Shown piece by piece: positions 40,131-58,228 of a DNA stretch of 64,000 bases; position 1 is the first letter of the stretch, and every line of letters begins with the position of its first letter. The notes beneath the pieces were generated by a model. That model was given only the letters and a program-made list of their open reading frames with translations. It was not told where the DNA came from and did not search any database. Source of the stretch: Haloechinothrix halophila YIM 93223 (GTDB lineage: Bacteria; Actinomycetota; Actinomycetes; Mycobacteriales; Pseudonocardiaceae); contig NZ_KI632509.1 of assembly GCF_000504245.1 (NCBI RefSeq), positions 4,491,502-4,555,501 of the forward strand. Reading direction: 5' to 3'. The position numbers were made by a program, and so were the translations under genes.

Positions 40131-40141
40131 CGGAGCCGATC

Positions 40142-41754: not shown

Positions 41755-42690
41755 ATGACGTCGACTACCCCAGGGCCCATCGCGCGGCTGCGCGCGCTGC
41801 GCTCGGTCACGCTGCGCTCCACCGCCTGCGCCGACGCGGCCGAGTTCTACCACGAAGTGTGGGGACTGCGGCCGGTCGAGCACGACACCGGCGCGGTGTG
41901 GCTGCGCGGCACGAGCCCCGAGCACCACGTGCTGCAACTCCAGCAGGCCGAGCAGAACGCGCTCGGTAAGGTCGCCTTCGCCGTCGCCACCCCGGCCGAC
42001 GTCGATGCGGCCGCCCACCGGCTCGCCGCGCACGGCGTGCCGCTCGTCACCGAGCCGGGCAAGCTCGACCAGGTCGGCGGCGGTTACGGGCTGCGGTTCG
42101 CCGACCCCGAGGGGCGGCTGATCGAGCTGTCCGCCGACGTCGACGCCGTCGTGCCGGACGACCCCGACGGGCATCCAGCCGTGCCGCGCAAAATCGCGCA
42201 TGTCGTGCTCAACACCGCCGACATCGACACCGCCTGCGAGTTCTATACCCGCGTGCTCGGTATGCGGATCTCCGACTGGTCCGAGCACCAGATGGCGTTC
42301 CTGCGCTGCAACGCCGACCACCACGTGATCGCGTTCAACCAGGCGGAGTTCCCGTCGATCAACCACGTCGCCTACGAGATGCCCTCGATCGATCACTTCA
42401 TGCGCGGCATCGGCAGGCTGCGGCACAACGGCATCACGCCATTGTGGGGACCCGGCAGGCACGGGCCGGGCAACAACACCTTCAGCTACTTCGCCGACCC
42501 GGCAGGGCTGGTCTGCGAGTACACCTCCGAGGTGGAGCAGATCGTGGAGGATGCCTGGCTGTGCCGGGTGTGGCGGCGCACCCCCGAGCTGTCCGACCTG
42601 TGGGGCACGGCGGGTCCGCCGTCGAAGGACGTCCGCGCACACATGAAGGGCGTGCCCGACCCCGGCTACACCGCGTGGTGGCAGGCATGA
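41755..42690 (+). CDS. Extradiol (VOC-fold) ring-cleavage dioxygenase
   Basis: 311 residues with two VOC domains. Metal ligands of the type I extradiol enzymes are in the second domain: His in KIAHVVLNTADID, His in SINHVAYEMP and Glu in LVCEYTSEVEQ. It would split a catecholic ring next to the hydroxyls using Fe(II) and oxygen. Following a Rieske oxygenase and preceding an alpha/beta hydrolase, it fits a meta-cleavage pathway. The GAACAGGAG site supports the start. The stop overlaps the next start (ATGA). Confidence 0.9.
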   Translation: MTSTTPGPIARLRALRSVTLRSTACADAAEFYHEVWGLRPVEHDTGAVWLRGTSPEHHVLQLQQAEQNALGKVAFAVATPADVDAAAHRLAAHGVPLVTEPGKLDQVGGGYGLRFADPEGRLIELSADVDAVVPDDPDGHPAVPRKIAHVVLNTADIDTACEFYTRVLGMRISDWSEHQMAFLRCNADHHVIAFNQAEFPSINHVAYEMPSIDHFMRGIGRLRHNGITPLWGPGRHGPGNNTFSYFADPAGLVCEYTSEVEQIVEDAWLCRVWRRTPELSDLWGTAGPPSKDVRAHMKGVPDPGYTAWWQA

Positions 42691-43469
42691 AGGTCGGCGT
42701 ACTTGGCGCGGGCGCCATCGGCGGGATCGTCGCGCGGGCGCTGCGCGACGGCCAGGTGCCTGGTGCCGCGTTGACCGGCGTGGCCCACGACGGCGCCGCC
42801 GATCCCGACGGCCTGCCGGTGCTGGCCATGCCCGACTTGATCGCTGGCTCCGACCTGGTCGTCGAGGCGGCGGGGCAGCACGCGCTGGCGGAGCACGGTC
42901 CCGCCGTGCTCGATGCGGGCACCGACCTGCTCGTGGTCTCCGTCGGAGCACTGGCCAACACCGCGCTGTTCGACCGGCTCCTCGCAGCAGGCCCGGGTGC
43001 GCTGCACCTGTCTACTGGCGCGATCGGCGGCCTTGACCTGCTCCGCGCCGCCGCGCGAATGGCGCCGCTCGACCGGGTGGAGATCGTCACCACCAAGCGC
43101 GCCACCAGCCTGATCCAGCCGTGGATGGACGACGCCGAACGCGCAAGGCTGCACAGCGCGACCGCGCCCATCGAACTGCGCCGCGGCCCGGCCCGCGATA
43201 TCACCGCGGCCTTCCCCAAGTCGGCCAACGTCGCGGCGTCGGTGGCCCTCGCGGCTGGCGACTGGGACGTCGTCGAGGCTGCCGTCGTCGCCGACCCGGC
43301 CGCCGCCACCACCTCGCACGTCATCACGGCCGACGGTGCGGCGGGCGAATACCGGTTCGAGATCCGCAACCAGCCATCCCCGCAGACCCCGACCAGCAGC
43401 CAGGTCGTGCCGTACGCGGTGCTGTCCGCACTCACCGCGCTGGCCACACCGAAGGGAGCGTTCCGGTGA
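42687..43469 (+). CDS. Aspartate-dehydrogenase-like oxidoreductase (NadX family)
   Basis: 260 residues. The N-terminal dinucleotide site is KVGVLGAGAIGGIVARAL. DLVVEAAGQHAL and LLVVSVGALAN follow, then a C-terminal domain with HLSTGAIGGLDLLRAA, TKRATSLI and FPKSANVAASVAL, as in L-aspartate dehydrogenases (PF01958/PF03447). NadX makes iminoaspartate for NAD synthesis, but in a catabolic operon the enzyme may instead act on an amino- or imino-dicarboxylate intermediate. It overlaps both neighbours by 4 bp. Confidence 0.85.
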   Translation: MKVGVLGAGAIGGIVARALRDGQVPGAALTGVAHDGAADPDGLPVLAMPDLIAGSDLVVEAAGQHALAEHGPAVLDAGTDLLVVSVGALANTALFDRLLAAGPGALHLSTGAIGGLDLLRAAARMAPLDRVEIVTTKRATSLIQPWMDDAERARLHSATAPIELRRGPARDITAAFPKSANVAASVALAAGDWDVVEAAVVADPAAATTSHVITADGAAGEYRFEIRNQPSPQTPTSSQVVPYAVLSALTALATPKGAFR

Positions 43470-44278
43470 ACGTGAACGGCATCCACCTGCACACCGCTGG
43501 CGACACCGGCTCGCCTGTACTGCTGCTGCACGGCATCGGCGGATCGGGCCGGTCGTTCGACGCCCAGCTACCGGAGCTGGGGCGCGGGCACCGAGCCTTC
43601 GCCTGGGACGCCCCTGGATACGGCGCTTCCGCCGATCCACATGGCTATCCCGGCATGTCCGGCTACGCCGCCAGCGTCGTCGACGTGCTGGACGGGCTCG
43701 GTGCCGACAGCGCCCACCTGGTTGGCGTGTCCTGGGGTGGGGTCATCGCGACCCGCACCGCGCTGCTGCACCCCGACCGGGTGCGCTCGCTGGTGCTAGC
43801 GGACTCCACCCGGGGCTCCAGGCTCACCGAGGAGTCGGCCTCGCGGATGCGTGCCCGCGCGCGAGAGCGCGCCAGGCTCGGCAGGCTGGCGTTCGCCCGG
43901 GAACGCGGTCCCCGGCTTACCGCCCCTCACGCCAACCCGGACGTCGTCGAGCAGGTCATCACGCTGATGAGCGAGCTGCGGCTACCCGGGTACGCGGCGG
44001 CGGTGGAGTCGATGGCCGAGACCGACCATTCCGACGCGCTCGCGCACCTGAGCGTGCCGACGCTGGTGGTGGTCGGCGCGCAGGACCGCGTCACAGGGGT
44101 GGCCGAGAGCCGGGCGCTCGCCGAGGGAATCCCCGGCGCGAGACTGCGGATCATTCCCGGCGGCCACGCCGCCAACCAGGAGCACCCTGGCGAGTTCAAC
44201 GCAGCCGTACGCGAGTTCCTGTCCGACGTGGACAGTGCGGTGCCCGCTGGGCCCGCCTGCCAAGCGGGAGGTGCCTGA
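43466..44278 (+). CDS. Alpha/beta hydrolase, probable meta-cleavage product hydrolase
   Basis: 270 residues from GTG 43466, overlapping the previous stop. It has LLLHGIGGSGRSF (oxyanion), the nucleophile Ser in LVGVSWGGVIATR, the acid Asp in VVGAQDRVT and the catalytic His in PGGHAANQEHP. The size and context after an extradiol dioxygenase fit hydrolysis of a ring-fission carbon-carbon bond. A general esterase is the alternative. The start of the following SDR overlaps its stop (TGATG). Confidence 0.88.
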   Translation: MNVNGIHLHTAGDTGSPVLLLHGIGGSGRSFDAQLPELGRGHRAFAWDAPGYGASADPHGYPGMSGYAASVVDVLDGLGADSAHLVGVSWGGVIATRTALLHPDRVRSLVLADSTRGSRLTEESASRMRARARERARLGRLAFARERGPRLTAPHANPDVVEQVITLMSELRLPGYAAAVESMAETDHSDALAHLSVPTLVVVGAQDRVTGVAESRALAEGIPGARLRIIPGGHAANQEHPGEFNAAVREFLSDVDSAVPAGPACQAGGA

Positions 44279-45024
44279 TGTCGCTGCACGGCAAGCGCAT
44301 CGTCGTCACCGGAGCGGGGCGCGGGCTCGGCTATGCCATCGCCGCCGCGATCGGCGCGCATGGTGGGTCGGTGGTGCTCGCCGAACGCGACGCGGAGCTG
44401 GCCGAGCGGGCCACGGCGGAACTGACCGCAGCGGGCGTCGACGTCACCCGGGTCGATACCGACGTCGCCGATCCGGATTCCGTGCGCGGACTCGCCGAGC
44501 GGGTGGCCGAGACCGGCGGGACGGACGGGCTGGTGAACAACGCGGCACTGGCCGACGGTGTTGGCGGCAAGCATTTCGCCGAACTGGACGTAGCCGCATG
44601 GGACCGGCTGATGACCGTGAACGCGCGCGGCCCGTGGCTGGTGTCGGCCGCGCTGTATCCGCAGCTCGCCGCGCGGTCGGGACGGATCGTGCAGCTCGCC
44701 TCCGACGCCGCGCTGTACGGCTCACCCCTGCTGGCGCACTACATCGCGTCCAAGGGCGCGGTGATGGCGCTGACCAGGGCGATGGCCCGCGACGCTGGCC
44801 CGGACGGCGTCACCGTCAACGCCGTCGCGCCTGGCCTGACCGAAGTCGAGGCCACCGAGGCGGTGCCCCAGGAGCGGCACCAGCTCTACGCCCACAATCG
44901 GGCGCTGGACCGCGCCCAGCAGCCTGAGGACGTCGTGGGTGCCGTGACCTTCCTGCTCTCCGACGCCGCATCGTTCATCACCGGTCACACGCTCGTCGTC
45001 AACGGCGGGTTCGTCTTCAGCTAG
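44278..45024 (+). CDS. Short-chain dehydrogenase/reductase
   Basis: 248 residues with an intact SDR core: VVTGAGRGLGYAIAAAI, VNNAAL in place of NNAG, Ser in LASDAALYGS and the catalytic Y-I-A-S-K. The C-terminus GHTLVVNGGFVFS is typical. It overlaps the hydrolase stop by one base and has GGGAGG upstream. It probably oxidises or reduces a hydroxyl or keto intermediate of the pathway. The next gene is a second SDR with altered catalytic residues. Confidence 0.88.
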   Translation: MSLHGKRIVVTGAGRGLGYAIAAAIGAHGGSVVLAERDAELAERATAELTAAGVDVTRVDTDVADPDSVRGLAERVAETGGTDGLVNNAALADGVGGKHFAELDVAAWDRLMTVNARGPWLVSAALYPQLAARSGRIVQLASDAALYGSPLLAHYIASKGAVMALTRAMARDAGPDGVTVNAVAPGLTEVEATEAVPQERHQLYAHNRALDRAQQPEDVVGAVTFLLSDAASFITGHTLVVNGGFVFS

Positions 45025-45033
45025 GAGCTCCTC

Positions 45034-45822
45034 ATGGATCTGGGACTTTCCGGCCGCAGCGTGCTGGTCACCGGTGCCAGTTCCGGCGTTGGCCTGGCCA
45101 CCGCCGCCGCGCTGCTGGCCGAGGGCGCGAACGTCGCGGCCTGCGCGCGGGACAAAGCGCGGCTGGACGTCGCGCTCGCTGAGCTGCCGCGTGCGGAGAA
45201 GGCGCGCGTGGTCACCGCCGCCTGCGACGTGCTCGACGCCGAATCGGTCGACCAGTTCGTCGCCGACGCGGCCGCCGAACTGGGCGGCATCGACGGCGTG
45301 GTCAACAACGCGGGACGCTCGCTGCTGGCGCGGCTGGCCGAGACCACCGACGAGCAGTGGCGGGCCGAGCTGGAGCTGAAGATCTTCAGCGTGCTGCACG
45401 TGGTGCGCGCGGCGGTGCCGCGGTTGCGCCGCTCCCCCGCCGCGTCGGTGGTCAACGTCAACGCGATCCTCGCCCGCCAGCCGGAGCCGAAACTCGCCGC
45501 GACCTCGGCGGCACGGGCGGCGCTGCTGAACCTGTCGACGACGTTGGCTAGCGAACTCGCGCCGGAAGGCATCCGGGTGAACTCGGTGTGCCTCGGGTTG
45601 ATCGACACCGGCCAGTGGCGCCGCCGCTACGAGACATCCGGTAGCCCGCTGAGGTTCGAGGAGTGGAGCGCCGAGCTGGCGGCCGACCGCGGCATCCCGC
45701 TGGGTCGGCTCGGCACCGCCGACGAGGTCGCCTACGCGGTGCTGTCGCTGCTCTCGCCCCGCGCGTCCTACATCACCGGCAGCTCCCTCGACGTCGGCGG
45801 CGGCGTCGCCCGTTACGTCTAG
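45034..45822 (+). CDS. SDR-fold protein lacking the catalytic Tyr and Lys
   Basis: 262 residues. The nucleotide site VLVTGASSGVGLATAAAL and NNAG are intact. Where YxxxK is expected the sequence is T157-S-A-A-R161, and the catalytic Ser position falls at NVNAILAR. The fold and cofactor site are preserved, so it may bind NAD(P) without ordinary dehydrogenase chemistry. It could also be a partner for the preceding SDR, or use other residues. It lies 9 bp after that SDR and 12 bp before the TPP enzyme. Confidence 0.85.
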   Translation: MDLGLSGRSVLVTGASSGVGLATAAALLAEGANVAACARDKARLDVALAELPRAEKARVVTAACDVLDAESVDQFVADAAAELGGIDGVVNNAGRSLLARLAETTDEQWRAELELKIFSVLHVVRAAVPRLRRSPAASVVNVNAILARQPEPKLAATSAARAALLNLSTTLASELAPEGIRVNSVCLGLIDTGQWRRRYETSGSPLRFEEWSAELAADRGIPLGRLGTADEVAYAVLSLLSPRASYITGSSLDVGGGVARYV

Positions 45823-45834
45823 AAAGGACTCTCC

Positions 45835-47499
45835 ATGCCCGAGACAACCGGCGGTGACCTGCTGGTGCGGCTGCTGCGTGAGCACGGTGTCAACACCGCG
45901 TTCGGCGTGGTCAGCGTGCACAACCTGCCCCTCGTCGATGCCATCGCTCATGAGCTCCGGTTCGTGCCAGTGCGCCACGAGGCCGCCGCGGTCAACGCCG
46001 CGGACGGCTACGCCCGCGCTACTGGCGGGCTGGGCGTCGCGGTCACCAGCACCGGAACCGGGGCGGGCAATGCCGCCGGGTCCATGATCGAAGCACTGTC
46101 GGCGGGCAGCAGGGTGCTGCACGTGACCGGCCAAGTCGACTCCGAGTTCATCGGCACCAATGGTGGCGTCAGGGGTGTTATTCATGAGACGCGCGATCAG
46201 CTCGGCATGCTCACCGCGATCTCCAAGCACGCCGCGACAGTGGCCTCGGCGGCGACGGCGGAACACACGCTGCGGGAGGCCATCGCGGCGGCACTGACCG
46301 CGCCGACCGGTCCTGCCAGCGTGGAATGGCCTATCGACCTGCAGTACGCCCGGCTCGGCGGCGCTGCCGTCGACGACGACACCGTCGCGACTGCCAGCAC
46401 CACTCCTGCCACGCCGCCAGTCGACGAGGACGCGCTCGCTCGCGCTGTCAACGCCCTCACCGGCGCGCGTCGCCCCGCGATCTGGGCGGGCGGCGGCGCG
46501 ACCTGCGCACGCGAGCAGGTGCGCGCGCTGGCCGAACGGCTCGGCGCGGCGGTGTTCACCAGCAACTCCGGCCGTGGCACACTCCCCGAGGACCACGACC
46601 TCGTGATCGGCAACTTCGCCGCCGCACCGGATGGTGCCGCGCTGCTCGCGGACGCCGACGTGCTGCTGTCGGTCGGCACGCACTTCCGCTCCAACGAGAC
46701 CAAGCACTACCAGCTCACGCTGCCCGCCACCCATGTGCAGCTCGACATCGACTCCGCCGCGCTCGGCCGCTCCTACCCCGCCGACGTCGCGCTGCACGGC
46801 GACGCCGCCATCGTGCTGGACGCGCTGCTCGCGACGCTCGGCGAGCCCGCGACCGAACCGGGCTGGCGGGAACGGGTGACCGCGACCCGCATCGCGGTGC
46901 GGGACCGGCTCCGCGCCGCGATCGGCCCGTACGCGCTCATGTGCGACGCACTCCGGGAGCAGCTGCCGCGTGACGCGGTGATCGCCCGCGACGTCACCAT
47001 CCCGTCGAGCCAGTGGGGCAACCGACTACTGGAGATCTACGACCCCGACACCAACGTCTTCCCGGTCGGCGGCGGCATCGGACAGGGCCTGGCCACCGGC
47101 ATCGGCGCCGCCCTGGCCCGGCCAGACGCGCCCACCGTGGTCATGGTCGGCGACGGCGGTCTCGCCGTGCACCTCGGGGAGCTGGCCACGCTGGCGCAGG
47201 AACGACCGTGGCTGGTCGTCGTGCTGTTCAACGACGGTGGCTACGGCGTGCTCCGCAACATGCAAGAACGCCACAGCGGACGGCGCAGCGGCGTGGACCT
47301 CTTCACCCCGGACTTCCACCGGCTCGCCCGCGCCGTCGACCTGCCGTACGAGCTGGTCCACCGCGCCGAGCAGTTCCCAGCCGCGTTGACCAAGGCGCTG
47401 GATCAGCACGGTCCCGCCGTGCTGGAGGTGGACGTGACCGCGCTGGAGCCCGCGCCGGAGCCGTTCGTGCCGCCGGTGCACGTGCCGAACCAGGAGTGA
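45835..47499 (+). CDS. Thiamine-diphosphate-dependent enzyme (acetolactate-synthase-like)
   Basis: 554 residues with three domains. The N-terminal PYR domain carries the cofactor-activating Glu in VRHEAAAVNAADGYAR. The central domain contains ARRPAIWAGGG. The C-terminal PP domain has the TPP/Mg motif MVGDGGLAVHLGEL...FNDGGYG. Relatives include acetolactate synthase, benzoylformate decarboxylase and cyclohexanedione hydrolase. In this operon, decarboxylation of a 2-oxo acid or carbon-carbon cleavage is plausible. AGAAAGGA lies upstream of the ATG. Confidence 0.9.
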   Translation: MPETTGGDLLVRLLREHGVNTAFGVVSVHNLPLVDAIAHELRFVPVRHEAAAVNAADGYARATGGLGVAVTSTGTGAGNAAGSMIEALSAGSRVLHVTGQVDSEFIGTNGGVRGVIHETRDQLGMLTAISKHAATVASAATAEHTLREAIAAALTAPTGPASVEWPIDLQYARLGGAAVDDDTVATASTTPATPPVDEDALARAVNALTGARRPAIWAGGGATCAREQVRALAERLGAAVFTSNSGRGTLPEDHDLVIGNFAAAPDGAALLADADVLLSVGTHFRSNETKHYQLTLPATHVQLDIDSAALGRSYPADVALHGDAAIVLDALLATLGEPATEPGWRERVTATRIAVRDRLRAAIGPYALMCDALREQLPRDAVIARDVTIPSSQWGNRLLEIYDPDTNVFPVGGGIGQGLATGIGAALARPDAPTVVMVGDGGLAVHLGELATLAQERPWLVVVLFNDGGYGVLRNMQERHSGRRSGVDLFTPDFHRLARAVDLPYELVHRAEQFPAALTKALDQHGPAVLEVDVTALEPAPEPFVPPVHVPNQE

Positions 47500-47527: not shown

Positions 47528-48022
47528 ATGACCTCATCGACCAGCCCGCTCGACCATCACCACACGCACGGCCCAGCCAACCGGGGCCGTCGCGTGCTGG
47601 AGACGTCGGCGCCGCTGTTCGTGCGCTGGCCCGAGACACCGCCGCGTGGCGCCGTCGTGGTGCTGCACGACGTCTACGGGCTCACCGAGGACGTCGAACG
47701 CCGCTGCGCCACGCTGGCGGCACACGGAGAGCTCGCGGTCGCGCCGTACTTCTACTACGAGACCGGCGGCCGGGAGTTCACCACCACCTCCCCGGAGCGT
47801 GCCTGGCGTGCGTGGGCGCGGCTGACCGAGGCAAGCAAGCTCGCCGACGTCGCGGGGGCGTTAGACCACCTGCGACGTCGCTGCGGCATTCCGCAGGACG
47901 CCATCACGCTGCTTGGCATCGGCGCCGGTGCTGACGTCGCCGCGGCGGCGAGCGTCATTTCGAGCGGTCATACGCTCGCCCGCTGGCGTGCGTCGGTCAC
48001 GACCTCTTCAGCCCATCGGTAG
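47528..48022 (+). pseudogene. Truncated dienelactone-hydrolase-family protein
   Basis: 164 codons; full enzymes have about 230 or more. The N-terminal part is recognisable (RGAVVVLHDVYGLTEDVERRC...LAVAPYFYYETGGREF...DVAGALDHLRRR). At the nucleophile elbow, where GxCxGG is expected, it reads G130-I-G-A-G134. About ten residues later the family similarity stops and the frame runs through the 3' end of the convergent acyl-CoA synthetase gene. The catalytic Asp and His region is missing. It appears to have lost its 3' half at this junction. The intact start has a GAGGAG site. Confidence 0.75.
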
Positions 48023-49645
48023 TCGGCCTTGCCGGTGGGTGCGCGCACGACGCGGTCCACGCGAACGACCGCCTTGGGCACTTTGTACCGCGCCACGTGC
48101 CGACCGCATTCGGCCAGCAGCTCCTCGTCGCGCACCGCGACATCGTCCTGAAGTTCCACGACGGCGACCACCTCGCTGCCCCACCGGCTGCTCGGCCGGC
48201 CTACCACGATGACGTCGCGCACGGCGGGATGTCCGATGATCGCGCGCTCGACCTCTTCGACGAAGATCTTCTCCCCGCCCGAGTTGATCGTGATGTTGTC
48301 GCGCCCGAGCAGCGCGATGCGGCCGTCGTCGAGCAGGTCGGCCCGGTCACCGGGAACCGCCCAGCGGACACCGTCCACCGTGGGGAAGGTGCGCGCGGTC
48401 TTGTCGGAGTCGCCGAGGTAGCCGAGGGGGACGCGGTCGCGGCGCGCGAGCCAGCCACCGCCCTCGCCGGGCTCAAGCACCCGGGTCAAGGCATCGTCGA
48501 GCACCGCGGTGTCCGGCTGCGGAGTGAAAATCGCTGCCTCCACCTCCGCGCCCTTGACCGACACGGAACTCATCTGGATTCCCGTCTCCGACGAGCCGGC
48601 GCCGTCAAGCAGGAGCACGTGCGGGATGGCTTCGAGTAGCCGGCTCCGCAGGCTGGGGCTGAGCGGAGCACCGCCGTTGTTCACCGCGGCGACCGATGAC
48701 AGGTCGTACCCGGCCCCGGCAGCGGACGCCCGCTCCACCTCTTCCACCAGCGGCAGCGCCATCGCGTCCCCGACCACCGGAATGCTGATCACGCGTTCCC
48801 GCTGCACCAGGTCGAGCGTGTCCGCGGCCGAGAAATGCCGGGTGTCGTCCGGAAGGACGACCGTCCCGCCGCCGGTGATCGTGTAGAAGCTGGACCATTG
48901 GGCGTTGCCATGCATGAACGGCGCCACGACGAGCAACTTCATCTGGGCCTCGCCGGACCGGGCATGCTCCGCGATCGCGTCGTAGGATGCGTGCGGCTCC
49001 GGCGCCCCCGAACGGGGTGCCGCCCATGGAGGACACGAAGATGTCGTCCTGCCGCCACAGCACGCCTTTCGGCATACCGGTCGTCCCCCCGGTGTAGAGG
49101 ACGTAGAGATCGTCCGGACTCGGCACCGGCATTCCGGTGGCGGGTGCCGGGGTGGTGACGATCGACTCGTAGTCGATCGCGCCGGGCAGCAGTTCGTTGC
49201 CGGACTCGTCGGCCACCTGGATCAGGATCGTCAGCTCGGGCAGTCGCTCACGGATGGCCCGCACGCGCGGCGCGAACTCCGCGTGGAAGACCAGCGCCCG
49301 CACCCTGGCGTCGGTCAGCAGGTAGACGAGCTCGTCCTCGACGTAGCGGTAGTTCACGTTCACCGGGGCCACCCGGGCGCGATAGCTGGCCACCATCGCC
49401 TCGAGATACTCGTTGCCGTTGCGGAGGTAGAGGCCGACGTGGTCCTGGCCAGACTCGTGACCGGCAAGGTTCGCCCGTTCGACATGGCAACCAAGGCCAT
49501 GGCCGGCCAGGAAGTGCGCTACGCCGTCGATGCGCGTGTCCACCTCGGCGTACGTCAGCCGCCGGTCCCGCCACACCAGCACCTCGCGGTCGGGCACGGC
49601 GTCGGCGACGGTGCGGAAAACGGTCGCGAGATTGAACGCGGTCAT
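47968..49645 (-). pseudogene. Acyl-CoA synthetase (FadD-type) with a frameshift
   Basis: The two halves lie in different frames but join into a complete ~558-residue AMP-forming synthetase. The N-part holds LYVLYTGGTTGMPKGVLW (P-loop) and ends in frame at SSMGGTPFG. The C-part continues with HASYDAIAEHARSGEAQMKLLVVAPFMHG, then LLLDGAGSSETG, PGDRADLLDDGRIALLGRD and the Lys-bearing PTGKADYRWAEE. The shift sits at a run of five C (49005-49009); removing one base restores the frame. It may be a true inactivation or a sequencing error in the homopolymer. It is the last gene of the minus-strand set and overlaps the truncated hydrolase gene. Confidence 0.85.
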
Positions 49646-49687: not shown

Positions 49688-50422
49688 TCAGAGTTTGTGC
49701 GGAATGTTCTGCACAGTGCCGCCGTCCATGACGAACTCGGTGCCGGTCGCGTAGGAGGACTCGTCGCTGGCGAGGAACAGGACGAAGCTCGCGACCTCGT
49801 CGGCAGTGCCTGCCCTGCCGAGCGGAATGGAGATCATATCGTCGGGGATGCCCTCGGTCAGCGGCGTGCGGATCAATCCGGGGTGGAGCGAGTTGACTCG
49901 GACTCCGTGCGGCGCCAGCTCCATCGCGACGGACTTGGTCAGGCCGCGGACACCCCATTTCGAGGCGACATACCCGTGCGCCCACGGGGTGCCGCGGAGA
50001 CCTTCGATCGAGGAGACGTTGATGATCGATCCGCCACCCGCTTCGATGATCGCGTCGGCTGCGGCCTGGATGCCGTAGAAGGTCCCGGTCAGGTTGATCG
50101 CGATGATGCGGTCCCACTCGCCGTGGTCGAACCGCTGGACCGTGCTGCCGTTCGCGATGCCTGCGTTGTTGACCAGGACGGTGAGCTTGCCAAACGCCTC
50201 GACCGCCGTCGCCACCGCCGCCCGCCAGTCATCGGGCTGGGTGACGTCGAGGTGGACGTAGCGCGCGGCAGCGCCCAGCTCATCGGCCAGCGCCTTGCCC
50301 TCGTCGTCGCGCACATCGCCGATGACCACTTTGGCGCCCTCTGCCACCAAGAGCCGGGCGTCGGCCTCGCCGATGCCCCGCGCGCCGCCGCTGATGAGCG
50401 CGACCTTGCCGCTAACCCGCAT
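49688..50422 (-). CDS. SDR oxidoreductase (hydroxysteroid/3-oxoacyl type)
   Basis: 244 residues with intact SDR motifs: VALISGGARGIGEADARLL, NNAG, Ser in INVSSIEGLRG and catalytic Y-V-A-S-K. An Asp ends strand 2 (VIGDVRDDEG), which favours NAD. It resembles the classical 3-alpha/20-beta-hydroxysteroid dehydrogenases. Beta-oxidation-like steps with the downstream acyl-CoA synthetase are plausible. It follows the dihydrodipicolinate-reductase-like gene by 15 bp. Confidence 0.88.
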   Translation of the reverse strand: MRVSGKVALISGGARGIGEADARLLVAEGAKVVIGDVRDDEGKALADELGAAARYVHLDVTQPDDWRAAVATAVEAFGKLTVLVNNAGIANGSTVQRFDHGEWDRIIAINLTGTFYGIQAAADAIIEAGGGSIINVSSIEGLRGTPWAHGYVASKWGVRGLTKSVAMELAPHGVRVNSLHPGLIRTPLTEGIPDDMISIPLGRAGTADEVASFVLFLASDESSYATGTEFVMDGGTVQNIPHKL

Positions 50423-50437: not shown

Positions 50438-51520
50438 TCATTCCTGGCTGACGGTGCCGAAGCCGTTGCCTGCCACCAGCGGGAGGTCGAGTGTCGTCCT
50501 GATACCCGGTTCGGCGGCCATCACCGCTGGGATGGCGTTCACGATCCGGCCCGCACCAGCGAGGATCGCGGCGTGGTTGTGGTCACCCTCACGACTCGCC
50601 GGGCAGATGTCCACCGTGTATGACGGCTCCCCTGTGATCTCGATGCGGTACGAGCCGCCCGGCTGCGCGGGCTGCGCCCAGTCCGGCCGCAGCTCAGCGC
50701 GCAGTCGCGTGACATGCTCGACCACCAGCACCGGCCGCCCGGCCGACATACCGCTGACCTGGAAGCGCAACGCGGCCATGCCGCCCTTGGGGATGTGTCC
50801 CGCGGCGACGTCGAACGCCTCAGGCGCAGGCTCCCGCTCGTAACTCTCGACGATCTCGTCGATCTCGATTCCGAGTCCCGTCGCGAGCTGGCGGATGGTC
50901 ACGCCCCATGCGCTGCTGAGCACGCCAGGGATCAGCAGCAGCGGCGTCTTCTCTTCCTGGAGGCCGAAGCCCATCACGTCGAACATCACCGTAGCGCCGG
51001 CATACGACGCGTAGTCGGCGATCTCGACGCAGCGGACCTGTTCGATAGTCCGGCAGGTACCGGCAAGCGTGAGCGGCATCAGGTCGTTGGCGAAGCCAGG
51101 GTCGACCCCGTTCACGAAGATGCTCACGCCCGCAGAGCGGGCGGCGTCCTCGATCGGATCGACCCACTTGTCGGGCAGCACCTGCCACGGATAGATCAGA
51201 GACGTCGGTGCCGTGCCGACGACGTTGGTCCCTGACTCGAGGATCCGGCGGCAGTCCTCCATCGCCTCCCGAAGACGGTTGTCGCCCATCGCGCAGTAGA
51301 CGACAACCTCCGGCCGGGTGGCCAACACGGCGTCGAGCTCCCCTGCAGCCTTGATACCCGTGTCGGCGTCGAGTCCCGCGAGCTCGCCGGCATCGCGGCC
51401 CACCTTCTCCTCGGTGGAAACGCAGACACCAGTGAGCTCGAAGCGAGGATCGTCGATCACGTGCCGCAGCGCCAGGCGGCCGACAGTGCCGGTGCCCACA
51501 TGCGCTACGCGGATCGGCAT
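50438..51520 (-). CDS. Dihydrodipicolinate-reductase-like oxidoreductase
   Basis: 360 residues. The N-terminal dinucleotide site is IRVAHVGTGTVGRLALRHV, followed by VVVYCAMGDNRLREA and VVGTAPTSLIYP. The middle contains VNGVDPGFANDLMPL and a long C-terminal domain ending VAGNGFGTV. This matches the large actinobacterial DapB-like/NAD(P)H-dependent amine dehydrogenase-type family found in steroid and terpenoid clusters, not the lysine-pathway enzyme, which is about 100 residues shorter. GGAGAGG precedes the ATG at 51520. It starts an operon with its own palindrome-overlapped promoter. Confidence 0.82.
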   Translation of the reverse strand: MPIRVAHVGTGTVGRLALRHVIDDPRFELTGVCVSTEEKVGRDAGELAGLDADTGIKAAGELDAVLATRPEVVVYCAMGDNRLREAMEDCRRILESGTNVVGTAPTSLIYPWQVLPDKWVDPIEDAARSAGVSIFVNGVDPGFANDLMPLTLAGTCRTIEQVRCVEIADYASYAGATVMFDVMGFGLQEEKTPLLLIPGVLSSAWGVTIRQLATGLGIEIDEIVESYEREPAPEAFDVAAGHIPKGGMAALRFQVSGMSAGRPVLVVEHVTRLRAELRPDWAQPAQPGGSYRIEITGEPSYTVDICPASREGDHNHAAILAGAGRIVNAIPAVMAAEPGIRTTLDLPLVAGNGFGTVSQE

Positions 51521-51579
51521 GGACCTCTCCTCACCCGATCGCGCCGGAGGCGCCGATCGTGGAAACAAGAACACGTTCC

Positions 51580-51613
51580 ACCAAGGATAGACATATGACT
51601 GGACATCTGTCCA
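51580..51613 (-). promoter_or_regulatory. Promoter with TGGACA palindrome
   Basis: TGGACATCTGTCCA (51600-51613) is a perfect inverted repeat. Read on the minus strand its first half serves as a -35 (TGGACA) 18 bp ahead of TATCCT. A regulator bound there would block the operon of the dihydrodipicolinate-reductase-like gene. Confidence 0.5.
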
Positions 51614-51662
51614 TACGCGCACGAAATGCTGCTAGATCACGCTCTTTCCCTGCGCGCCAGGC

Positions 51663-52820
51663 TCAGACCGCCACGGACGCGGCGTGCCCCGCCGGACCGA
51701 GCGGCACCCGCCAGGCGTCGTAGGCGTACACCCAGTCCGCGTCGCCGGAGTCCTTCAGCCAGTTGTTGCCGCGCGAGCCGAGCTGGATGCGTGCGGTGCG
51801 TTCCCGTCGCGCCGCCTCGTACCGCCGCAGCGCATCCGCCACCGACGCGCTGTCCACGCCGGACAGTGCCCGCGCCAGCACCACGGCGTCCTCCACCGCC
51901 GTGCCAGCGCCCTGCGCCATGAACGGCATCATCGGATGGCAGGCATCGCCGAGCAGCGTCACCGTCCCCGCCGACCATCGCGGCAGCGGATCGCGCACGT
52001 ACAGCGCGGACTTCAGTACCTCGTCGCAGGCGTCCAGCAGCGCACGGGCGTCCGGATGAAAGGCGCGGTAACGCTCCCGCAGCTCGGTCACGCTGCCCGG
52101 CATGGTCCACGACTCGTGCGTCCAGTCGTCCTGCGGCGCGGTGGCGAACACGAACGTCTCGGTGCCTCGGTTCAGCGGGAACGTCACGATCTGCGTGTCC
52201 GGGTCAGGTCCCCACCACTTCGTGAACGCCGTGATGTCCGGCACCGCGCGCACCCGCTCCGTCGGCACCACCGCGCGGTAGGCGACCACCCCGGTGAACG
52301 TCGGATGCTCAGGACCGAACAGCGCGGTGCGCACCGCAGAGTGGATGCCGTCCGCGCCGATCAGGACGTCGACCTCGGCGTCGGTGTCGTCGTCGAACCG
52401 CAGCCGGGACCGCTCACCCGGCTCCACGGCGGTCAGCCGTTTGCCGAACTCGATCACGCCGCCCGGCAGCGCGCCGGTGAGCGCCGCAAGCAAGTCCGCG
52501 CGATGAATCGTGAGCTGGGGCGAGCCGTAGCGCTCCTCGGCGGCGTGCGACATCGCCAGCCGGGACGTCTCATGCCCGGTGTCCCACATACGGCTGATGC
52601 GGTGCGTGGGGCGCGCCGCCGTCGCACGCAGCCGGTCACCGAGTCCAAGGCCGTCGAGGGCGGTGACGGCGTTCGGGGTCAGGTTGACGTCGGCGCCGAC
52701 GCGGGCGAAGCCGGGTGCCTGCTCGAAGACCCGGACCTGGTGGCCGAAGCTCCGCAGCGCGATGGCCGCGGCGAGCCCGCCGATGCCGCCGCCGACGATT
52801 CCGATAACTCTGTCGCTCAT
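51663..52820 (-). CDS. FAD-dependent aromatic hydroxylase (salicylate-hydroxylase type)
   Basis: 385 residues of the class A flavoprotein monooxygenases. The FAD motif is VIGIVGGGIGGLAAAIAL, with the DG fingerprint VDVLIGADGIHSAVR and the GD motif VTLLGDACHPMMPFMAQGA. It hydroxylates an activated aromatic ring using NAD(P)H and oxygen. It lies between the sulfatase and the dihydrodipicolinate-reductase-like gene on the same strand. Desulfation followed by ring hydroxylation is an attractive order for the two enzymes. Confidence 0.9.
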   Translation of the reverse strand: MSDRVIGIVGGGIGGLAAAIALRSFGHQVRVFEQAPGFARVGADVNLTPNAVTALDGLGLGDRLRATAARPTHRISRMWDTGHETSRLAMSHAAEERYGSPQLTIHRADLLAALTGALPGGVIEFGKRLTAVEPGERSRLRFDDDTDAEVDVLIGADGIHSAVRTALFGPEHPTFTGVVAYRAVVPTERVRAVPDITAFTKWWGPDPDTQIVTFPLNRGTETFVFATAPQDDWTHESWTMPGSVTELRERYRAFHPDARALLDACDEVLKSALYVRDPLPRWSAGTVTLLGDACHPMMPFMAQGAGTAVEDAVVLARALSGVDSASVADALRRYEAARRERTARIQLGSRGNNWLKDSGDADWVYAYDAWRVPLGPAGHAASVAV

Positions 52821-52902: not shown

Positions 52903-54465
52903 TCATGCGGTGTGGGTGGGGGTCACGCCCTCGTCGGCGTGCGCGAGCATCGTCTGGACAAGCAGGTCGGTGAGGTCCGCGCGCAAGCCGCGGGAACGGT
53001 CGTGGTGCCAGCGGTTACGCATTTCCAGCGGGTCGGCGTCGTGGTCGAACAGCTCCCCGTCGTCGTGCCCCGCGTAGGTGGTCAGCCGCGCGTGCTCCGT
53101 GACCAACGAGCGCATCCGGATCGGACCAGGCAGGCCGGGCAGGCTGAACAGCTCGTCTTCCTCGACCAGCAGCGTCTCCCGCGGCCGCGCACGCGGATTG
53201 GTCAGCAGCGGCACCAGCGACTGGCCCTGCATCCCCCGGTACTCACGCGCGCCGCACAGGTCGAGGATGGTGCTGGCGATGTCCAGCGAGGACACCAGCG
53301 CGTCGCTCACGCCGGGCTCGTAGCCGGGCGCCCGAACCACCAGCGGTACCCGGACGCAGGCCTCGTAGTGCATGGCGTGCTTGAGCATCATGCCGTGGTC
53401 GCCGAACATGTCGCCGTGGTCGCTGGTGAAGATCACCACGGTGTTGTCGTCGAGGCCAAGTCGTTCCAGCGCGGCCATGAGCCTGCCGACGCCCTCGTCG
53501 ACCATGGTGATCATGCCGAACTGGACGGCCGCGGCGACCCGGAACTGTTCCTCGGTGGGTGCCCAGCCGGTGAAGAACGTGCGCGCGTGCCCCCGTTCGG
53601 CGGCCATCGCGCGATAGTGCGGCATGGAGTGCTCGTGCGTGTCCGCGAAGGACTCCGGCAGGTCCACGTCGCTGGGCGAGTACATCTCGTAGTGCCGCTT
53701 CGGTGGCGCGAACGGGTGGTGCGGGTCGGGGAACGAGCACCACAGCAGGAACGGCTCGTCGTCGCCTGCGCGGTCGCTGAGGAAGTCGATGCTGCGGTCG
53801 ACGATGTAGTTCGTCGGATACAGCTCCTCTGGCATCGGGGTCTGCCACACCTGGTTCCAGTCGTCGTAGCGCTGGGCGGCGTTCTGCCGCCCCTGCAGCA
53901 GCTCAGGGTCGACGCCCTGGCGCAGCAGCCACTGGTAGTAGTGCCCTGATGCGTTGGCGGAGTAGCCGCCGACCAGCCGGACGTGGTCGAAGCCGTAGAA
54001 ATCCTCCGGAAGTTCGACGTCGGCGTGCCGGTGGCGTTCGACATCCTCCCACTGGTCCCACCCGTGCGGGTGATTTCTGGTCACGGCGTCGCCCTCGCGT
54101 TCGGCCAGCAGCTCCAGCACCTGTTCGGCACCTTTGCCAAGATTCTGCAGGTGGGACTTGCCGACCAGCCCGGTGCGATAGCCCTGCGCGCGCAGCACGC
54201 GGGCGAAGGTGTTGGCGTCGGGGTCGAGTGAGATGCCGTTGACCCTGGTGCCATGCGCCGAAGGCAGCCGGCCAGTCAGGATCGACGCCCGATTGGGCAT
54301 ACATATCGGGTTTGCGACGAATGCCCGGTCGAACCGCGTCCCAGACCGCGCCAACGCGTCCAGGTGCGGCGTCGCCACCAGCGGGTTTCCGCCGAATCCG
54401 ACGTGGTCAGCACGTTGTTCGTCGGTCATGATCACCACGACATTCGGTGCTCCGGCACGCGGCAT
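52903..54465 (-). CDS. Type I sulfatase
   Basis: 520 residues. The formylglycine site is C55-M-P-N-R59 in NPICMPNRASILTGR, the C-x-P-x-R sulfatase signature. Metal-binding blocks are PNVVVIMTDEQRADHVG and FTSDHGDMFGDHGM, with KSHLQN and the C-terminal VRAPG region also present. It should hydrolyse a sulfate ester after maturation by a formylglycine-generating enzyme, which is not encoded in the window. The ATG at 54465 has AAGGAG upstream. It is divergent from the ABC importer genes across a spacer with AAACCTC repeats. Confidence 0.92.
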   Translation of the reverse strand: MPRAGAPNVVVIMTDEQRADHVGFGGNPLVATPHLDALARSGTRFDRAFVANPICMPNRASILTGRLPSAHGTRVNGISLDPDANTFARVLRAQGYRTGLVGKSHLQNLGKGAEQVLELLAEREGDAVTRNHPHGWDQWEDVERHRHADVELPEDFYGFDHVRLVGGYSANASGHYYQWLLRQGVDPELLQGRQNAAQRYDDWNQVWQTPMPEELYPTNYIVDRSIDFLSDRAGDDEPFLLWCSFPDPHHPFAPPKRHYEMYSPSDVDLPESFADTHEHSMPHYRAMAAERGHARTFFTGWAPTEEQFRVAAAVQFGMITMVDEGVGRLMAALERLGLDDNTVVIFTSDHGDMFGDHGMMLKHAMHYEACVRVPLVVRAPGYEPGVSDALVSSLDIASTILDLCGAREYRGMQGQSLVPLLTNPRARPRETLLVEEDELFSLPGLPGPIRMRSLVTEHARLTTYAGHDDGELFDHDADPLEMRNRWHHDRSRGLRADLTDLLVQTMLAHADEGVTPTHTA

Positions 54466-54574
54466 CACTCACTCCTTCCCCGTCGTCGACGTCTCGGGAC
54501 GCCGCTGTTCTGCGGGCAGCGGCCCAGCGGAGGAGGCTTTCTCCACCCGAACCCTTGCGATCAGGCGACCGAGT

Positions 54575-54601
54575 GAGGTAAACCTCTTAGTGCTAAACCT
54601 C
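54575..54601. promoter_or_regulatory. Repeated TAAACCTC motif between sulfatase and importer
   Basis: TAAACCTC occurs at 54579-54586 and 54594-54601, 15 bp apart. The first copy lies in the imperfect dyad GAGGTAAACCTC (54575-54586). This is a candidate operator for the divergent sulfatase and ABC-importer genes. Confidence 0.45.
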
Positions 54602-54684
54602 ATACTAGCAAGATAGTTGCTGGAGTCACCCCCCGGATTTCCCCGGCAGGCCCGAGGACGGTCCGCCAGAGAAGGAGCCCCGCA

Positions 54685-55755
54685 ATGCCAGGAACGAGAT
54701 CACTGAGAGCTGTCGGCGCAGCGATCAGCGCACTCGGAGTGGCCGCAACGCTGGTCGCGTGCGGCGATCAGGGCGAAGCCGCCGCGCAGCTCGCCAACGC
54801 GCCCCGCTGCGCGGACGTCGACCTGTCGACACCGCCGCAGGAACCGGTCGAGATCCGGCTCGGGGTGCAGCCTTCCGTCATCGAGCCGCTACAGATCCAG
54901 TACGTGGACCCAGAGTTCGCGGGCGCCGAGCACTACGGCGAGTGGTACACCGTCAAGGCCACCACCTATGCGCCCGCCGATCGGCTGGACGCCTTCCAGG
55001 CGGGCCAGATCGACGGCGGCACCGCGTCCGCCCCGCAGCTCATCCGCGCGGTGGCCCAGGGCCTGCCGCTGCGGGTCGCGGCGTCGATCACGACGGAGTC
55101 CAGCGAGGGCTTCACCACCAAGTTCGCCACGCTCTCCGACAGCGGGATCACCGAGCTTGCTGACCTCAAGGGCAAGCGCATCGGCATTCTCGACCCGGTG
55201 ACGTCCACCGCCTACTGGGCGCGCAGCACCGTCGCCAGCGCGGGGCTCGATCCCGACCGCGACGTCGAGTTCGTCACCATCCCGGTCGCCGAGCAGGAGA
55301 AGGCGCTGCGCGCGGGCACCATCGACGTCGCGGTGCTGCCGCAGCCCTTCTTCGACATGGCCAACGGCAGCGGCGGCATCGAGGTGCTGTTCGACTCTCG
55401 TACCGGCCCCGGCATCGACCAGGAGCTGATCGACGTCTTCTTCGGCGTCGAGTTCATCGCGAACAACCCGGAGGCGTACTGCGCGTGGCGGGCCGACTAC
55501 CAGTCCGCCGTCAGCGCCTACCAGCAGGACCGCGCGACCGCGGTGACAACGCTCAACGAGGCGGAGGCCATCCGCGTCATGGACCTGGAGGCGTTCATCG
55601 AGGCGGAGGACTACGCCCGGCCCGATGACGGCAAGATCGACCTGGCCAACCTCGACGCGATGATCGACAACATGGCTGACGTCGGCTTCCTCAAGCCGAA
55701 CCAGACGGTGCCCGCAGCCGACCTCGTCGCGGAGGGATACTCCCTTGTTAAGTAG
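54685..55755 (+). CDS. ABC importer substrate-binding lipoprotein (SsuA/TauA-like)
   Basis: 356 residues. The signal peptide ends at the lipobox TLVAC-G. The mature protein has the NMT1/SsuA fold markers IRLGVQPSVIEPLQIQYV, FQAGQIDGGTASAPQLIRA, LKGKRIGILDPVTSTAYW and AGTIDVAVLPQPFF. It would capture the substrate outside the membrane and deliver it to the two permeases. Sulfonate, nitrate and aromatic-acid uptake all occur in the family. The neighbouring sulfatase makes a sulfated or sulfonated substrate worth considering. Confidence 0.9.
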   Translation: MPGTRSLRAVGAAISALGVAATLVACGDQGEAAAQLANAPRCADVDLSTPPQEPVEIRLGVQPSVIEPLQIQYVDPEFAGAEHYGEWYTVKATTYAPADRLDAFQAGQIDGGTASAPQLIRAVAQGLPLRVAASITTESSEGFTTKFATLSDSGITELADLKGKRIGILDPVTSTAYWARSTVASAGLDPDRDVEFVTIPVAEQEKALRAGTIDVAVLPQPFFDMANGSGGIEVLFDSRTGPGIDQELIDVFFGVEFIANNPEAYCAWRADYQSAVSAYQQDRATAVTTLNEAEAIRVMDLEAFIEAEDYARPDDGKIDLANLDAMIDNMADVGFLKPNQTVPAADLVAEGYSLVK

Positions 55756-56605
55756 CAATGCCGCGCCCTCGGGCGCCACGACGATGGAAGCGATCACGGA
55801 CCAGCCGCAGCTACGCCTCACCGGCGTCAGGAAGACGTTCCACCGCGACCGCAAGACGGTCGAGGCGCTGCGCGACGTCTCCTTCGAGGTGCCGCGCGGG
55901 CAGTTCCTGTCCGCGCTGGGACCGAGTGGGTGCGGCAAGAGCACGATGCTGCACATCATCGGCGGGTTCGAGACGGCGACCTCCGGCTCGGTGCACCTCG
56001 ACGGCAAGCCGGTGACAGCGCCGGGCCGCGACCGGGGCATGATGTTCCAGCAGGCCACGCTGTTCCCGTGGAAGACCGTGCAAGCCAACGTCGCGTGGCC
56101 GCTGCTCGTCGACGGCTGGAAGCGCAAGCATGCTCGCGAGCGAGCGCGGGAACTGCTGGCCACGGTCGGACTGAGCGGGTTCGAGCACTCCTATCCCGCC
56201 GAGCTGTCCGGCGGGATGCGCCAGCGCGCCGCACTGGCCCGCACCCTTGGGCTCGCCCCGGACATCCTGCTCATGGACGAGCCGTTCGGCGCGCTGGACG
56301 CGCAGACCAGGGAGCTGATGCAGGAGGAACTGACCCGGATCTGGCAGGAATCCCAGCTCACCGTCATCTTCATCACCCACGACATCAACGAGGCGGTGTT
56401 CCTCGGCGATCGCGTGCTGGTGATGGGCGCGCGGCCGGGCCGGATCATCGCCGACGTCGAGATCGAGCTGGATCGGCCACGCGGCGCGCACACCAAGCGT
56501 GATCCGAAGCTGGTCGAGTACCACAACGAGTTCTGGGACCTGATTCGCCAGGAGGCAGGCCCGCAGCCGTCCGGCTCACGGGACGCGGGAGAGACACCGT
56601 CATGA
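55745..56605 (+). CDS. ABC importer ATP-binding protein (SsuB/TauB-like)
   Basis: 286 residues. Walker A is LGPSGCGKST, the Q-loop FQQATLFPWKTV, the signature LSGGMRQRAALAR, Walker B ILLMDEPFGALD and the H-loop FITHDINEAV. The family's GALDAQTRELMQEEL follows. The start is uncertain. A TTG at 55745 has GGAGG 9 bases upstream and overlaps the binding-protein stop, whereas an ATG at 55784 lacks a clear site. It energises the two permeases encoded next, with a 4-bp overlap to the first. Confidence 0.9.
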   Translation: MLSSNAAPSGATTMEAITDQPQLRLTGVRKTFHRDRKTVEALRDVSFEVPRGQFLSALGPSGCGKSTMLHIIGGFETATSGSVHLDGKPVTAPGRDRGMMFQQATLFPWKTVQANVAWPLLVDGWKRKHARERARELLATVGLSGFEHSYPAELSGGMRQRAALARTLGLAPDILLMDEPFGALDAQTRELMQEELTRIWQESQLTVIFITHDINEAVFLGDRVLVMGARPGRIIADVEIELDRPRGAHTKRDPKLVEYHNEFWDLIRQEAGPQPSGSRDAGETPS

Positions 56606-57438
56606 CCGCCACGCTGACCCCCGAATCACGGGTGGGCAGGCGCGAATGGGCGGAGTGGATGCTCGACCGGCGCTGGCCGGTCGCCACGGCCGTCGTGCTG
56701 GTGCTGCTCGCCGCGTGGCAGACCTACGGCGTCATCGCCGGGCTGCCGGAATACATCCTCACGCCGTTCGAGATCGCGGGCTCCGTCACGGAGCTGTTGG
56801 CGTCCGGACGGCTGGTCGAGCTGAGCTCGGCCAGCCTCGGGCGGCTGACGGCAGGCTTCCTGCTCGGCACAACGAGCGGCGTGCTGATCGGCCTGCTCTC
56901 CGGAGTGTCGCGCTGGTTCGGTGACATCGTGGACGGCGCGGTCGGGTTCACCTACCCGATCCCGAAGATCACCCTGCTGCCGATCCTCGCGATCTGGCTC
57001 GGCTTCACCGACTCCACGCGAATCCTGGTGATCGCCATCGCGGTGTTCTTCCCCGCCTACATCAACGCCAACGCCGCGACCCGCGGTGTGGACCAGGAAC
57101 TGGTGTGGGTCGCCAAGAACGCGGGCGCGGGCACCCTGCGCACCGTGCTGCAGGTGGTACTGCCCGCGGCGCTACCGAGAACGGTCGCCGGGATCAGGCA
57201 GAGTCTCGCGCTGTCGTTCATCTTCATGTTCGCCACGGAAGCCATCGGCAGCTCGACCGGTGCCGACGCGGGGCTCGGCGGGGAGATGTTCGCCGCCCGC
57301 GCCAACGGCGAGTACGACGTGCTGTGGGCCGCGCTGGCCACCGTCGCCGTGCTCGGCGGGACGATCGACGCCGGGTTCCGCTGGCTCGTCGGACGTCTGA
57401 TGCGTGGGCAGGAGCTGGAGGTGACCGGTCGTGGCTAA
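56602..57438 (+). CDS. ABC importer permease (SsuC/TauC-like)
   Basis: 278 residues with about six membrane helices. It carries the BPD_transp_1 region (GRLTAGFLLGTTSGVLIGLL, TYPIPKITLLPILAIWLGF) and the EAA-type loop WVAKNAGAGTLRTVLQVVLPAALP, which docks to the ATPase. Its start overlaps the ATPase stop (ATGA), and its end overlaps the second permease by 8 bp. Two different permease genes in one importer imply a heterodimeric channel. Confidence 0.9.
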   Translation: MTATLTPESRVGRREWAEWMLDRRWPVATAVVLVLLAAWQTYGVIAGLPEYILTPFEIAGSVTELLASGRLVELSSASLGRLTAGFLLGTTSGVLIGLLSGVSRWFGDIVDGAVGFTYPIPKITLLPILAIWLGFTDSTRILVIAIAVFFPAYINANAATRGVDQELVWVAKNAGAGTLRTVLQVVLPAALPRTVAGIRQSLALSFIFMFATEAIGSSTGADAGLGGEMFAARANGEYDVLWAALATVAVLGGTIDAGFRWLVGRLMRGQELEVTGRG

Positions 57439-58228
57439 CGTGACCTTTCCGCGCGCCCTCGCGCCACGGAACCTGCTGACGGGCGCCGCGCTGCGCCGGT
57501 TGCTCGGCGTCGCCGCGCTGCTCGGCGGCTGGGAACTGGTCGCTCGGCTTGGTGGTACCCGGCTGACGCCGACGCTGGACGAGATCGCCATCCGCGTGCT
57601 CTACGACATCGAGACCGGCACGCTGCTCTTCCACGCGCAGCGGACGCTGCTGCTGGCGTTCAGTGGGCTGGCGATCGCGGTGGTGGTCGGGTGCGCCGTC
57701 GGGCTGCTGATGGCACGGAGCCGCTGGGCCGAGGCCGCGCTGCAGCCGCTGCTCGGGGCGACGTATCCGATCCCCCGGCTGGCGCTGTATCCGGTGTTGA
57801 TCCTGCTGTTCGGCCTCGGCGCCGCGCCGAAGATCGTGCTGGTCTCGCTGGAGTGCCTGTATCCGATGGCGCTCGGTGCGTACGTCGGTGCCCGATCGGT
57901 GACCACGACCCAGCTGTGGCTGGCCCGCAACGTCGGCGCGAGCTGGTCACGCACCCTGCGCGACGTGATCGTGCCCGCCGCTTTGCCGTCGATGTTGACC
58001 GGACTTCGGGCGGCGGCCCCTGTGATGCTGATCGTGATCGTGGTGACCGAGATGATCGGCGAGAACCGGGGACTCGGCTACATGATCATGCTGGCGCGGG
58101 CGAACTTCGAGCCGGACGGTGTGCTCGCTGTCGTCGCTGTCCTCGCGGTGCTCGGCTTCGCCTTCGACCGTGCGGTCGTGCTGCTCAGCCGGGTCCTGGT
58201 GTTCTGGGAACGCGACGTCCGGTTGTAG
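57431..58228 (+). CDS. ABC importer permease, second subunit
   Basis: 265 residues of the same family as its neighbour. It has a helix around LLLAFSGLAIAVVVGCAVGLL, TYPIPRLALYPVLILLFGLG, and the EAA loop ARNVGASWSRTLRDVIVPAALPSMLTGL. The GTG at 57431 overlaps the first permease. It ends the importer operon, and a palindromic repeat lies shortly downstream before the convergent methyltransferase. Confidence 0.9.
   Translation: MANVTFPRALAPRNLLTGAALRRLLGVAALLGGWELVARLGGTRLTPTLDEIAIRVLYDIETGTLLFHAQRTLLLAFSGLAIAVVVGCAVGLLMARSRWAEAALQPLLGATYPIPRLALYPVLILLFGLGAAPKIVLVSLECLYPMALGAYVGARSVTTTQLWLARNVGASWSRTLRDVIVPAALPSMLTGLRAAAPVMLIVIVVTEMIGENRGLGYMIMLARANFEPDGVLAVVAVLAVLGFAFDRAVVLLSRVLVFWERDVRL

Follow-up and report, generated by a model that had tools for sequence, protein, structure and literature searches.

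The window analysed here, a stretch of 64,000 nucleotides from Haloechinothrix halophila YIM 93223, covers bases 4491502–4555501 of a 5.55-Mb single-contig genome that is 98.87% complete. It contains a gene for a type I sulfatase-like hydrolase on the minus strand, divergent from a plus-strand ATP-binding cassette (ABC) importer with a substrate-binding protein (SBP), an ATPase and two permeases, while a flavin hydroxylase gene lies 82 bp behind the sulfatase. The features of this group, in window positions, are as follows.

51663–52820, minus strand: group A flavin monooxygenase (the hydroxylase), a gene of the adjoining pathway (PF01494, 3.1e-28)
52903–54468, minus strand: type I sulfatase-like hydrolase, 521 amino acids, with C56-M-P-N-R60 and no visible signal peptide (PF00884, 1.8e-53; structure model with a predicted local distance difference test score, pLDDT, of 79.8)
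54579–54601, plus strand: two TAAACCTC copies (at 54579 and 54594), flanking the predicted operator
54587–54596, no strand: predicted operator TTAGTGCTAA, in the sulfatase/SBP spacer, 88 bp to the SBP start and 118 bp to the sulfatase start
54685–55755, plus strand: NMT1-type substrate-binding lipoprotein (PF09084, 2.1e-15; lipobox LVAC, by eye)
55745–56605, plus strand: ABC ATPase (PF00005, 1.2e-31)
56602–57438, plus strand: ABC permease 1 (PF00528, BPD_transp_1, 3.5e-17)
57431–58228, plus strand: ABC permease 2 (PF00528, BPD_transp_1, 8.8e-21)

Open reading frames and Pfam matches agree on the divergent sulfatase and the complete importer with two permeases, as a first-pass annotation of this DNA had described them; its physical observation is right, although the repeats that it noted in the spacer are not significant. 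The flavin hydroxylase that it placed in the group is a real gene as well, although it lies outside the coordinates quoted for that group (52903–58228). The spacer between the divergent genes measures 216 bp, and the importer genes overlap successively by 11, 4 and 8 bp.

Both TAAACCTC copies are indeed present in the shared spacer and form the sole perfect pair in the genome, but they do not exceed chance, as 6–12% of shuffles equal them: dinucleotide shuffling of the spacer gave an exact 8-base direct repeat within 40 bp in 239 of 2000 cases, and a repeat matching at 10 of 11 bases in 118 of 2000 (and also in 42 of 256 window slices). What is significant is the palindrome that the copies flank, TTAGTGCTAA at 54587. 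Neither sigma-70-like promoters nor terminators were found in this spacer, and it has no word of 10 bases in common with the two pathway spacers. The palindrome is related to the adjoining aromatic pathway, which has the following features.

36296–36844, plus strand: MarR-family regulator, candidate reader of the operator (PF12802, 3.4e-11)
36945–38447, minus strand: aldehyde dehydrogenase (ALDH) of the pathway (PF00171, 1.2e-163)
38613–38622, no strand: predicted operator TTAGCTCTAA, between the divergent ALDH and cupin genes of the pathway
38638–47499, plus strand: cupin, ferredoxin reductase, HTH_62 protein, Rieske oxygenase, extradiol dioxygenase, aspartate-dehydrogenase-like protein, hydrolase, two short-chain dehydrogenases (SDRs) and thiamine pyrophosphate (TPP) enzyme, kept in 13 other genomes

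Alignment of the ALDH/cupin divergent spacer of the window with that of seven relatives gave a recurrent palindrome, CTTAGNNCTAAG. Its 10-base core, TTAGNNCTAA, trimmed after both window sites proved to be off by one outer base (controls used the same 10-base form), is found at exactly two window sites, 38613 and 54587, while shuffles give a mean of 0.01 and 0 of 100 reach two. Because the ALDH/cupin spacer of the window was itself in the alignment that gave the pattern, the site at 54587 is the only independent find. Across 29 loci (25 stretches from the 13 pathway-bearing relatives, together with Caballeronia, Cupriavidus, Nitratireductor and Halostella), the core has 23 sites versus 1.4 expected from composition, and versus 0–2 for each of 11 permuted half-sites. 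The matched genes nearest to these sites are ALDH, cupin, extradiol, reductase or MarR genes; no site falls inside a matched gene, and one site in G734 lies 549 bp from the nearest one. Nine of the 13 relatives have sites at pathway promoters, the 4 further organisms have none, and CTTAGTGCTAAACC, upstream of ALDH in G532, is identical to the 54587 site. The fetched loci of 11 of the 13 also encode a MarR homologue (45–70% identical). Taking a pathway operator in the promoter as the mark of regulon membership, we found it here as TTAGTGCTAA at 54587. Since the predicted operator is common to both divergent promoters, the sulfatase, the hydroxylase and the importer probably share the regulon of the pathway, and this shared operator is the strongest evidence of the analysis.

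The pathway genes, from ALDH and cupin to the TPP enzyme, recur together in relatives. Rieske homologues at E 1e-60 are present in 14 of 377 genomes of the order, our own included, with pathway gene sets around the other 13, and similar clusters are annotated on Caballeronia, Nitratireductor, Acinetobacter and Novosphingobium plasmids; literature searches returned no published description of this pathway cluster. A hydroxylase at least 65% identical is encoded in 7 of the 13 other pathway genomes; in six of these its gene is no more than about 17 kb away from the Rieske gene, in G554 it lies elsewhere, and homologues 62–68% identical occur in 5 of 25 plasmid records matched. Judged by these homologues, the flavin hydroxylase is a gene of the adjoining pathway. 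That the group feeds this pathway, as had been proposed before, is therefore probably correct, because the operator is shared and the hydroxylase belongs to the pathway.

Two identifications were tried and rejected. The hydroxylase matches 6-hydroxynicotinate 3-monooxygenase (5eow, 280 bits), but when counted in the alignment, H47, H211, Y215 and H302, which we take to be the catalytic residues of that enzyme, are not kept. Riboflavin catabolism was considered as well; according to PMC12746152, its Rieske enzyme has alpha and beta subunits, and it includes a P450 step.

Several side observations concern the pathway and its surroundings. In relatives, too, the HTH_62 "recombinase-like" protein (77 amino acids, 1.1e-28; window 40427–40660) is encoded beside the Rieske oxygenase. 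Near flavin monooxygenase-like and SDR genes, at 27109–28008 and 31338–32264 of the window, there are an AurF-type N-oxygenase (8.8e-99) and a second, weak AurF match (1.7e-6). An A. baumannii plasmid record has a similar pathway gene set; for A1S_0956-0958 (L-aspartate dehydrogenase, betaine-aldehyde dehydrogenase, acetolactate synthase), possibly the same cluster, PMC5757984 gives values of 2.2–2.4 with mucin. For gene names of the PA3505 type, the literature search gave no paper.

The importer had been called SsuABC-like, which holds at superfamily level only: the SBP (best NCBIfam match SsuA_fam, 71.2 bits versus a cut-off of 163.5), the ATPase (196.7 bits versus an Ssu cut-off of 395) and the permeases (101 and 105.6 versus 347) all remain below the SsuA/B/C cut-offs, and a sulfonate importer is thus not supported. 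This bears on the sulfur scavenging that was also put forward, in which sulfonates or sulfate esters would be imported under starvation in the manner of Ssu or Ats systems. The SsuA_fam match speaks for it, as does the arylsulfatase gene atsA of P. aeruginosa, up more than 95-fold under sulfur starvation according to PMC12581299. With all importer parts under the Ssu/Tau cut-offs, no SsuD- or TauD-type oxygenase among the genes Pfam-scanned between 27 and 61 kb, and an operator that points to a carbon pathway, we nevertheless regard scavenging as very improbable.

No SBP homologue at E 1e-30 was found in 396 other genomes searched, and at E 1e-20 there was one match in 72,556 plasmid records, from Halostella (29%). 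In the trees, the SBP joins that of Halostella (100/99), permease 2 stands with one Halostella permease (98/95) and permease 1 with the other (81/84), while the ATPase is grouped with those of Halostella, Nitratireductor and G532 (100/99). The Halostella plasmid encodes ring-hydroxylating dioxygenase alpha and beta subunits, aspartate dehydrogenase, and TPP and SDR relatives; no relative of the window sulfatase was found in 49 kb of it. On these trees, the nearest sampled relative of the importer is in a haloarchaeal aromatic cluster that lacks this sulfatase. The structure model of the SBP (mean pLDDT 39.7) was not used.

Besides the sulfatase, the genome encodes no other PF00884 protein. The enzyme has two marks of a type I (S1) sulfatase, the PF00884 fold and C/S-X-P-X-R with catalytic-type residues: all 22 aligned sequences retain D16, C56-M-P-N-R60, N77, K104, H106, H250, H251, D350, H351 and K363, to which we assign presumed catalytic-type roles. 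In fold it comes closest to glycan sulfatases, SpAS1/2 and phosphonate monoester hydrolases. Matches at E 1e-90 were found in 8 of 394 genomes of the class, own included, and nine relatives (46–57%) were collected from genome contigs. The surroundings were read in five other genomes; G190 and G200, with matches of 334–351 bits, served only as controls for the formylglycine-generating enzyme (FGE). Five actinobacterial loci (Citricoccus, G233, G328, G213 and G413) link the clade to an Amidohydro_3 gene and to an ABC importer. In G413 no SBP was seen and a TauE/SafE exporter gene overlaps the end of the sulfatase gene; in a sixth locus, G336, the contig stops just past the sulfatase. The Amidohydro_3–sulfatase–importer set is carried by small-genome actinobacteria. 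The window sulfatase itself falls outside the Amidohydro_3-linked subclade (100/100), and its nearest row is from a metagenome-assembled genome labelled Deltaproteobacteria (57%). Around wider relatives (33–43% identical), genes for tripartite tricarboxylate (TTT), tripartite ATP-independent periplasmic (TRAP), SulP or ABC transporters are nearby in 6 of 7 plasmid regions read, the one without being Haloprofundus. As the sulfatase has no visible signal peptide and the SBP has a lipobox, desulfation would occur in the cell after import, which fits the earlier proposal of import ahead of desulfation.

To hypothesize, the group would serve the adjoining aromatic pathway, under the same regulator, as its part for uptake and unmasking, a reading to which we give a little better than an even chance. 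It builds on what the sequence itself shows: the genes with their catalytic-type residues, the operator in common, where the hydroxylase comes from, and which sampled relative of the importer is nearest. From here we infer the substrate, the order of steps, the MarR protein as reader and the sulfatase activity. The lipoprotein SBP would capture a sulfate-ester aromatic, which would enter the cell intact, the cytoplasmic sulfatase would take off the sulfate, and the flavin monooxygenase, perhaps with an SDR, a reductase and a CoA ligase, would ready the freed ring for the Rieske/extradiol/TPP pathway. The MarR regulator (36296–36844) would respond to a compound of the pathway and act on the two divergent promoters by way of TTAGNNCTAA at 38613 and 54587. 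The pathway would thereby gain a further point of entry, for the O-sulfated form of an aromatic; the data suggest this but do not prove it. The scheme is supported by the grouping of the SBP with that of the aromatic Halostella cluster, by SBP-type importers within the pathway clusters of G618, G615, G532 and Nitratireductor, and by the ties between the sulfatase clade and importers in the five actinobacterial loci, with the TauE/SafE gene in G413. The other members of the minus-strand group, in which intergenic gaps are 15–133 bp when the reductase start is taken at the inner ATG, are as follows.

47968–49645, minus strand: acyl-CoA synthetase (the CoA ligase), split across two reading frames; the first 213 amino acids match PRK07798 (8.6e-79) and the remainder is in another frame
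49688–50422, minus strand: SDR, partner of the reductase (PF13561, 7.2e-64)
50438–51622, minus strand: DAP_DH_C-type reductase (PF19328, 1.6e-14)

Several observations weigh against this scheme. The CoA ligase is broken near the end of its first third, by a frame change or a sequence error. The operator core was not seen in the fetched stretches of 4 of the 13 relatives (G027, G618, G615 and G612), and the 12-base form with at most 2 mismatches is not significant, with 6 sites versus 3.64 expected and 14 of 100 shuffles reaching 6. The SBP tree places the window/Halostella pair next to sulfatase-linked SBPs (87/87) and not next to pathway-linked ones. The ATPase and permease trees have the pair next to importers linked with the pathway; within the ATPase tree, those of G618 and G615, although pathway-linked, group with the sulfatase-linked ones. 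The sulfatase-linked importers of Citricoccus, G233, G328 and G213 (and G413, without SBP) form separate branches. These trees, of 11–18 rows with long branches, disagree on the neighbour of the pair. The sulfatase clade is present in 0 of the 13 other pathway genomes, which gives no recurrent link between sulfatase and pathway, and a tblastn search with the sulfatase found no match at E 1e-3 in the 29 pathway loci (609 kb, Halostella as a 16.9-kb form); the sulfatase is accordingly this genome's own addition, since its clade is missing from those 13.

The last objection concerns maturation. A canonical FGE query found no such protein in the own genome, G213, G233, G328, G336 or G413, i.e., in six of six examined clade-bearing genomes (G233 gave one weak match without the motif), and an anaerobic sulfatase-maturating enzyme (anSME), sought in the own genome only, reached 20.7 bits versus a cut-off of 349. 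The same FGE query returned 48–50% identical proteins in 5 of 5 control genomes, chosen for having other sulfatases. The genome has two PF03781 proteins. The first (G000:C1:41603-42364; L021 967-2274) scores as SenA, selenoneine synthase (473 bits versus a cut-off of 420). In the second (G000:C1:434463-434942; L022 1204-2088), a helix-turn-helix protein is fused with an FGE-like domain that lacks the first of the two aligned cysteines which we take to be the FGE active site and keeps the other. Gaps in fragmented genomes may be behind single FGE absences.

These data would also fit a protein that is not a working sulfatase in its host: without FGE the cysteine would stay unmodified, and the enzyme would be idle or would hydrolyse a different ester, for example a phosphonate or phosphodiester. 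The lack of a canonical FGE and of an anSME over cut-off, and the phosphonate monoester hydrolases among the nearest folds, favour such a view, yet C-X-P-X-R and all catalytic-type residues are kept throughout the alignment, SulP- or TauE-type exporter genes adjoin relatives, and according to PMC5870055 such proteins are modified in E. coli by an enzyme that is not known. We consider it improbable. A cysteine-type clade working in cells without a known FGE, by an unidentified maturase (cf. the E. coli activity) or with the cysteine unmodified, is a possibility that we rate as somewhat doubtful. If true, our own genome and the five actinobacteria would be natural places to seek the maturase. 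That no canonical FGE was recognised in all six bears on which enzyme matures such sulfatases where FGE is missing.

The importer might instead carry an ordinary unsulfated aromatic acid and replace the major facilitator superfamily (MFS) carrier of the relatives, with the sulfatase co-regulated but acting on another or a minor substrate. G671, G540, G723, G027 and G734 have MFS carriers beside pathway genes and G554 has one at a second locus, there is no MFS homologue in the window, and SBP-type importers sit in pathway clusters where no relative of the window sulfatase was found. Against this, the sulfatase has the divergent promoter and the operator in common with the importer, and its clade is linked with importers elsewhere. 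We hold this explanation to be unlikely.

As for the origin of the operon, each of the 5 high-scoring loci that were read, drawn from 99 genomes with the reductase, has this gene next to the same SDR, and the pair is also on a Gordonia plasmid; since the two are neighbours in other loci, the operon is a mosaic. In the dienelactone-hydrolase-like gene at 47528–48022 of the window, similarity to relatives stops at 47896, where theirs continue. This break, together with the missing MFS homologue, may mark a joint where a new block was set in, or a rearrangement. Recent transfer was rejected on composition, as the GC content and tetranucleotides of the sulfatase and importer stretches are within the range of window slices.

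The analysis offers a regulon hypothesis (MarR and TTAGNNCTAA) for a widespread aromatic pathway, which has seemingly been widened to a sulfate-masked substrate by genes put under the same switch.

Among known systems, SpAS1/SpAS2 and the phosphonate monoester hydrolases (4upi, 4upl, 2vqr, 2w8s) share the fold of the sulfatase (VIA Z 34.6–35.7; Foldseek top rank 4upi), but they are only 23–28% identical, and glycan sulfatases score as high (6pt4, Z 36.8). The atsRBCA cluster of P. aeruginosa combines a sulfatase with a dedicated importer. Our group likewise has a sulfatase gene beside an ABC importer for its putative substrate, whereas here the operator ties the group to an aromatic carbon pathway, and the importer is not of Ssu type by cut-off. 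The Amidohydro_3–sulfatase–importer operons (G233, G328, G213 and Citricoccus; permeases and ATPase in G413) have the same sulfatase clade beside an SBP-type ABC importer; unlike them, the window has no amidohydrolase, its sulfatase is outside their subclade (100/100), and its importer is on separate branches. Finally, the Rieske/extradiol/TPP clusters of relatives and of the Caballeronia, Nitratireductor, Acinetobacter and Novosphingobium plasmids have the same pathway genes and hydroxylase, and the operator in 9 of 13 relatives; they differ in that the relatives encode an MFS carrier or a different importer, and in all 13 the sulfatase clade, which in our strain stands under the predicted operator of the pathway, was not found.

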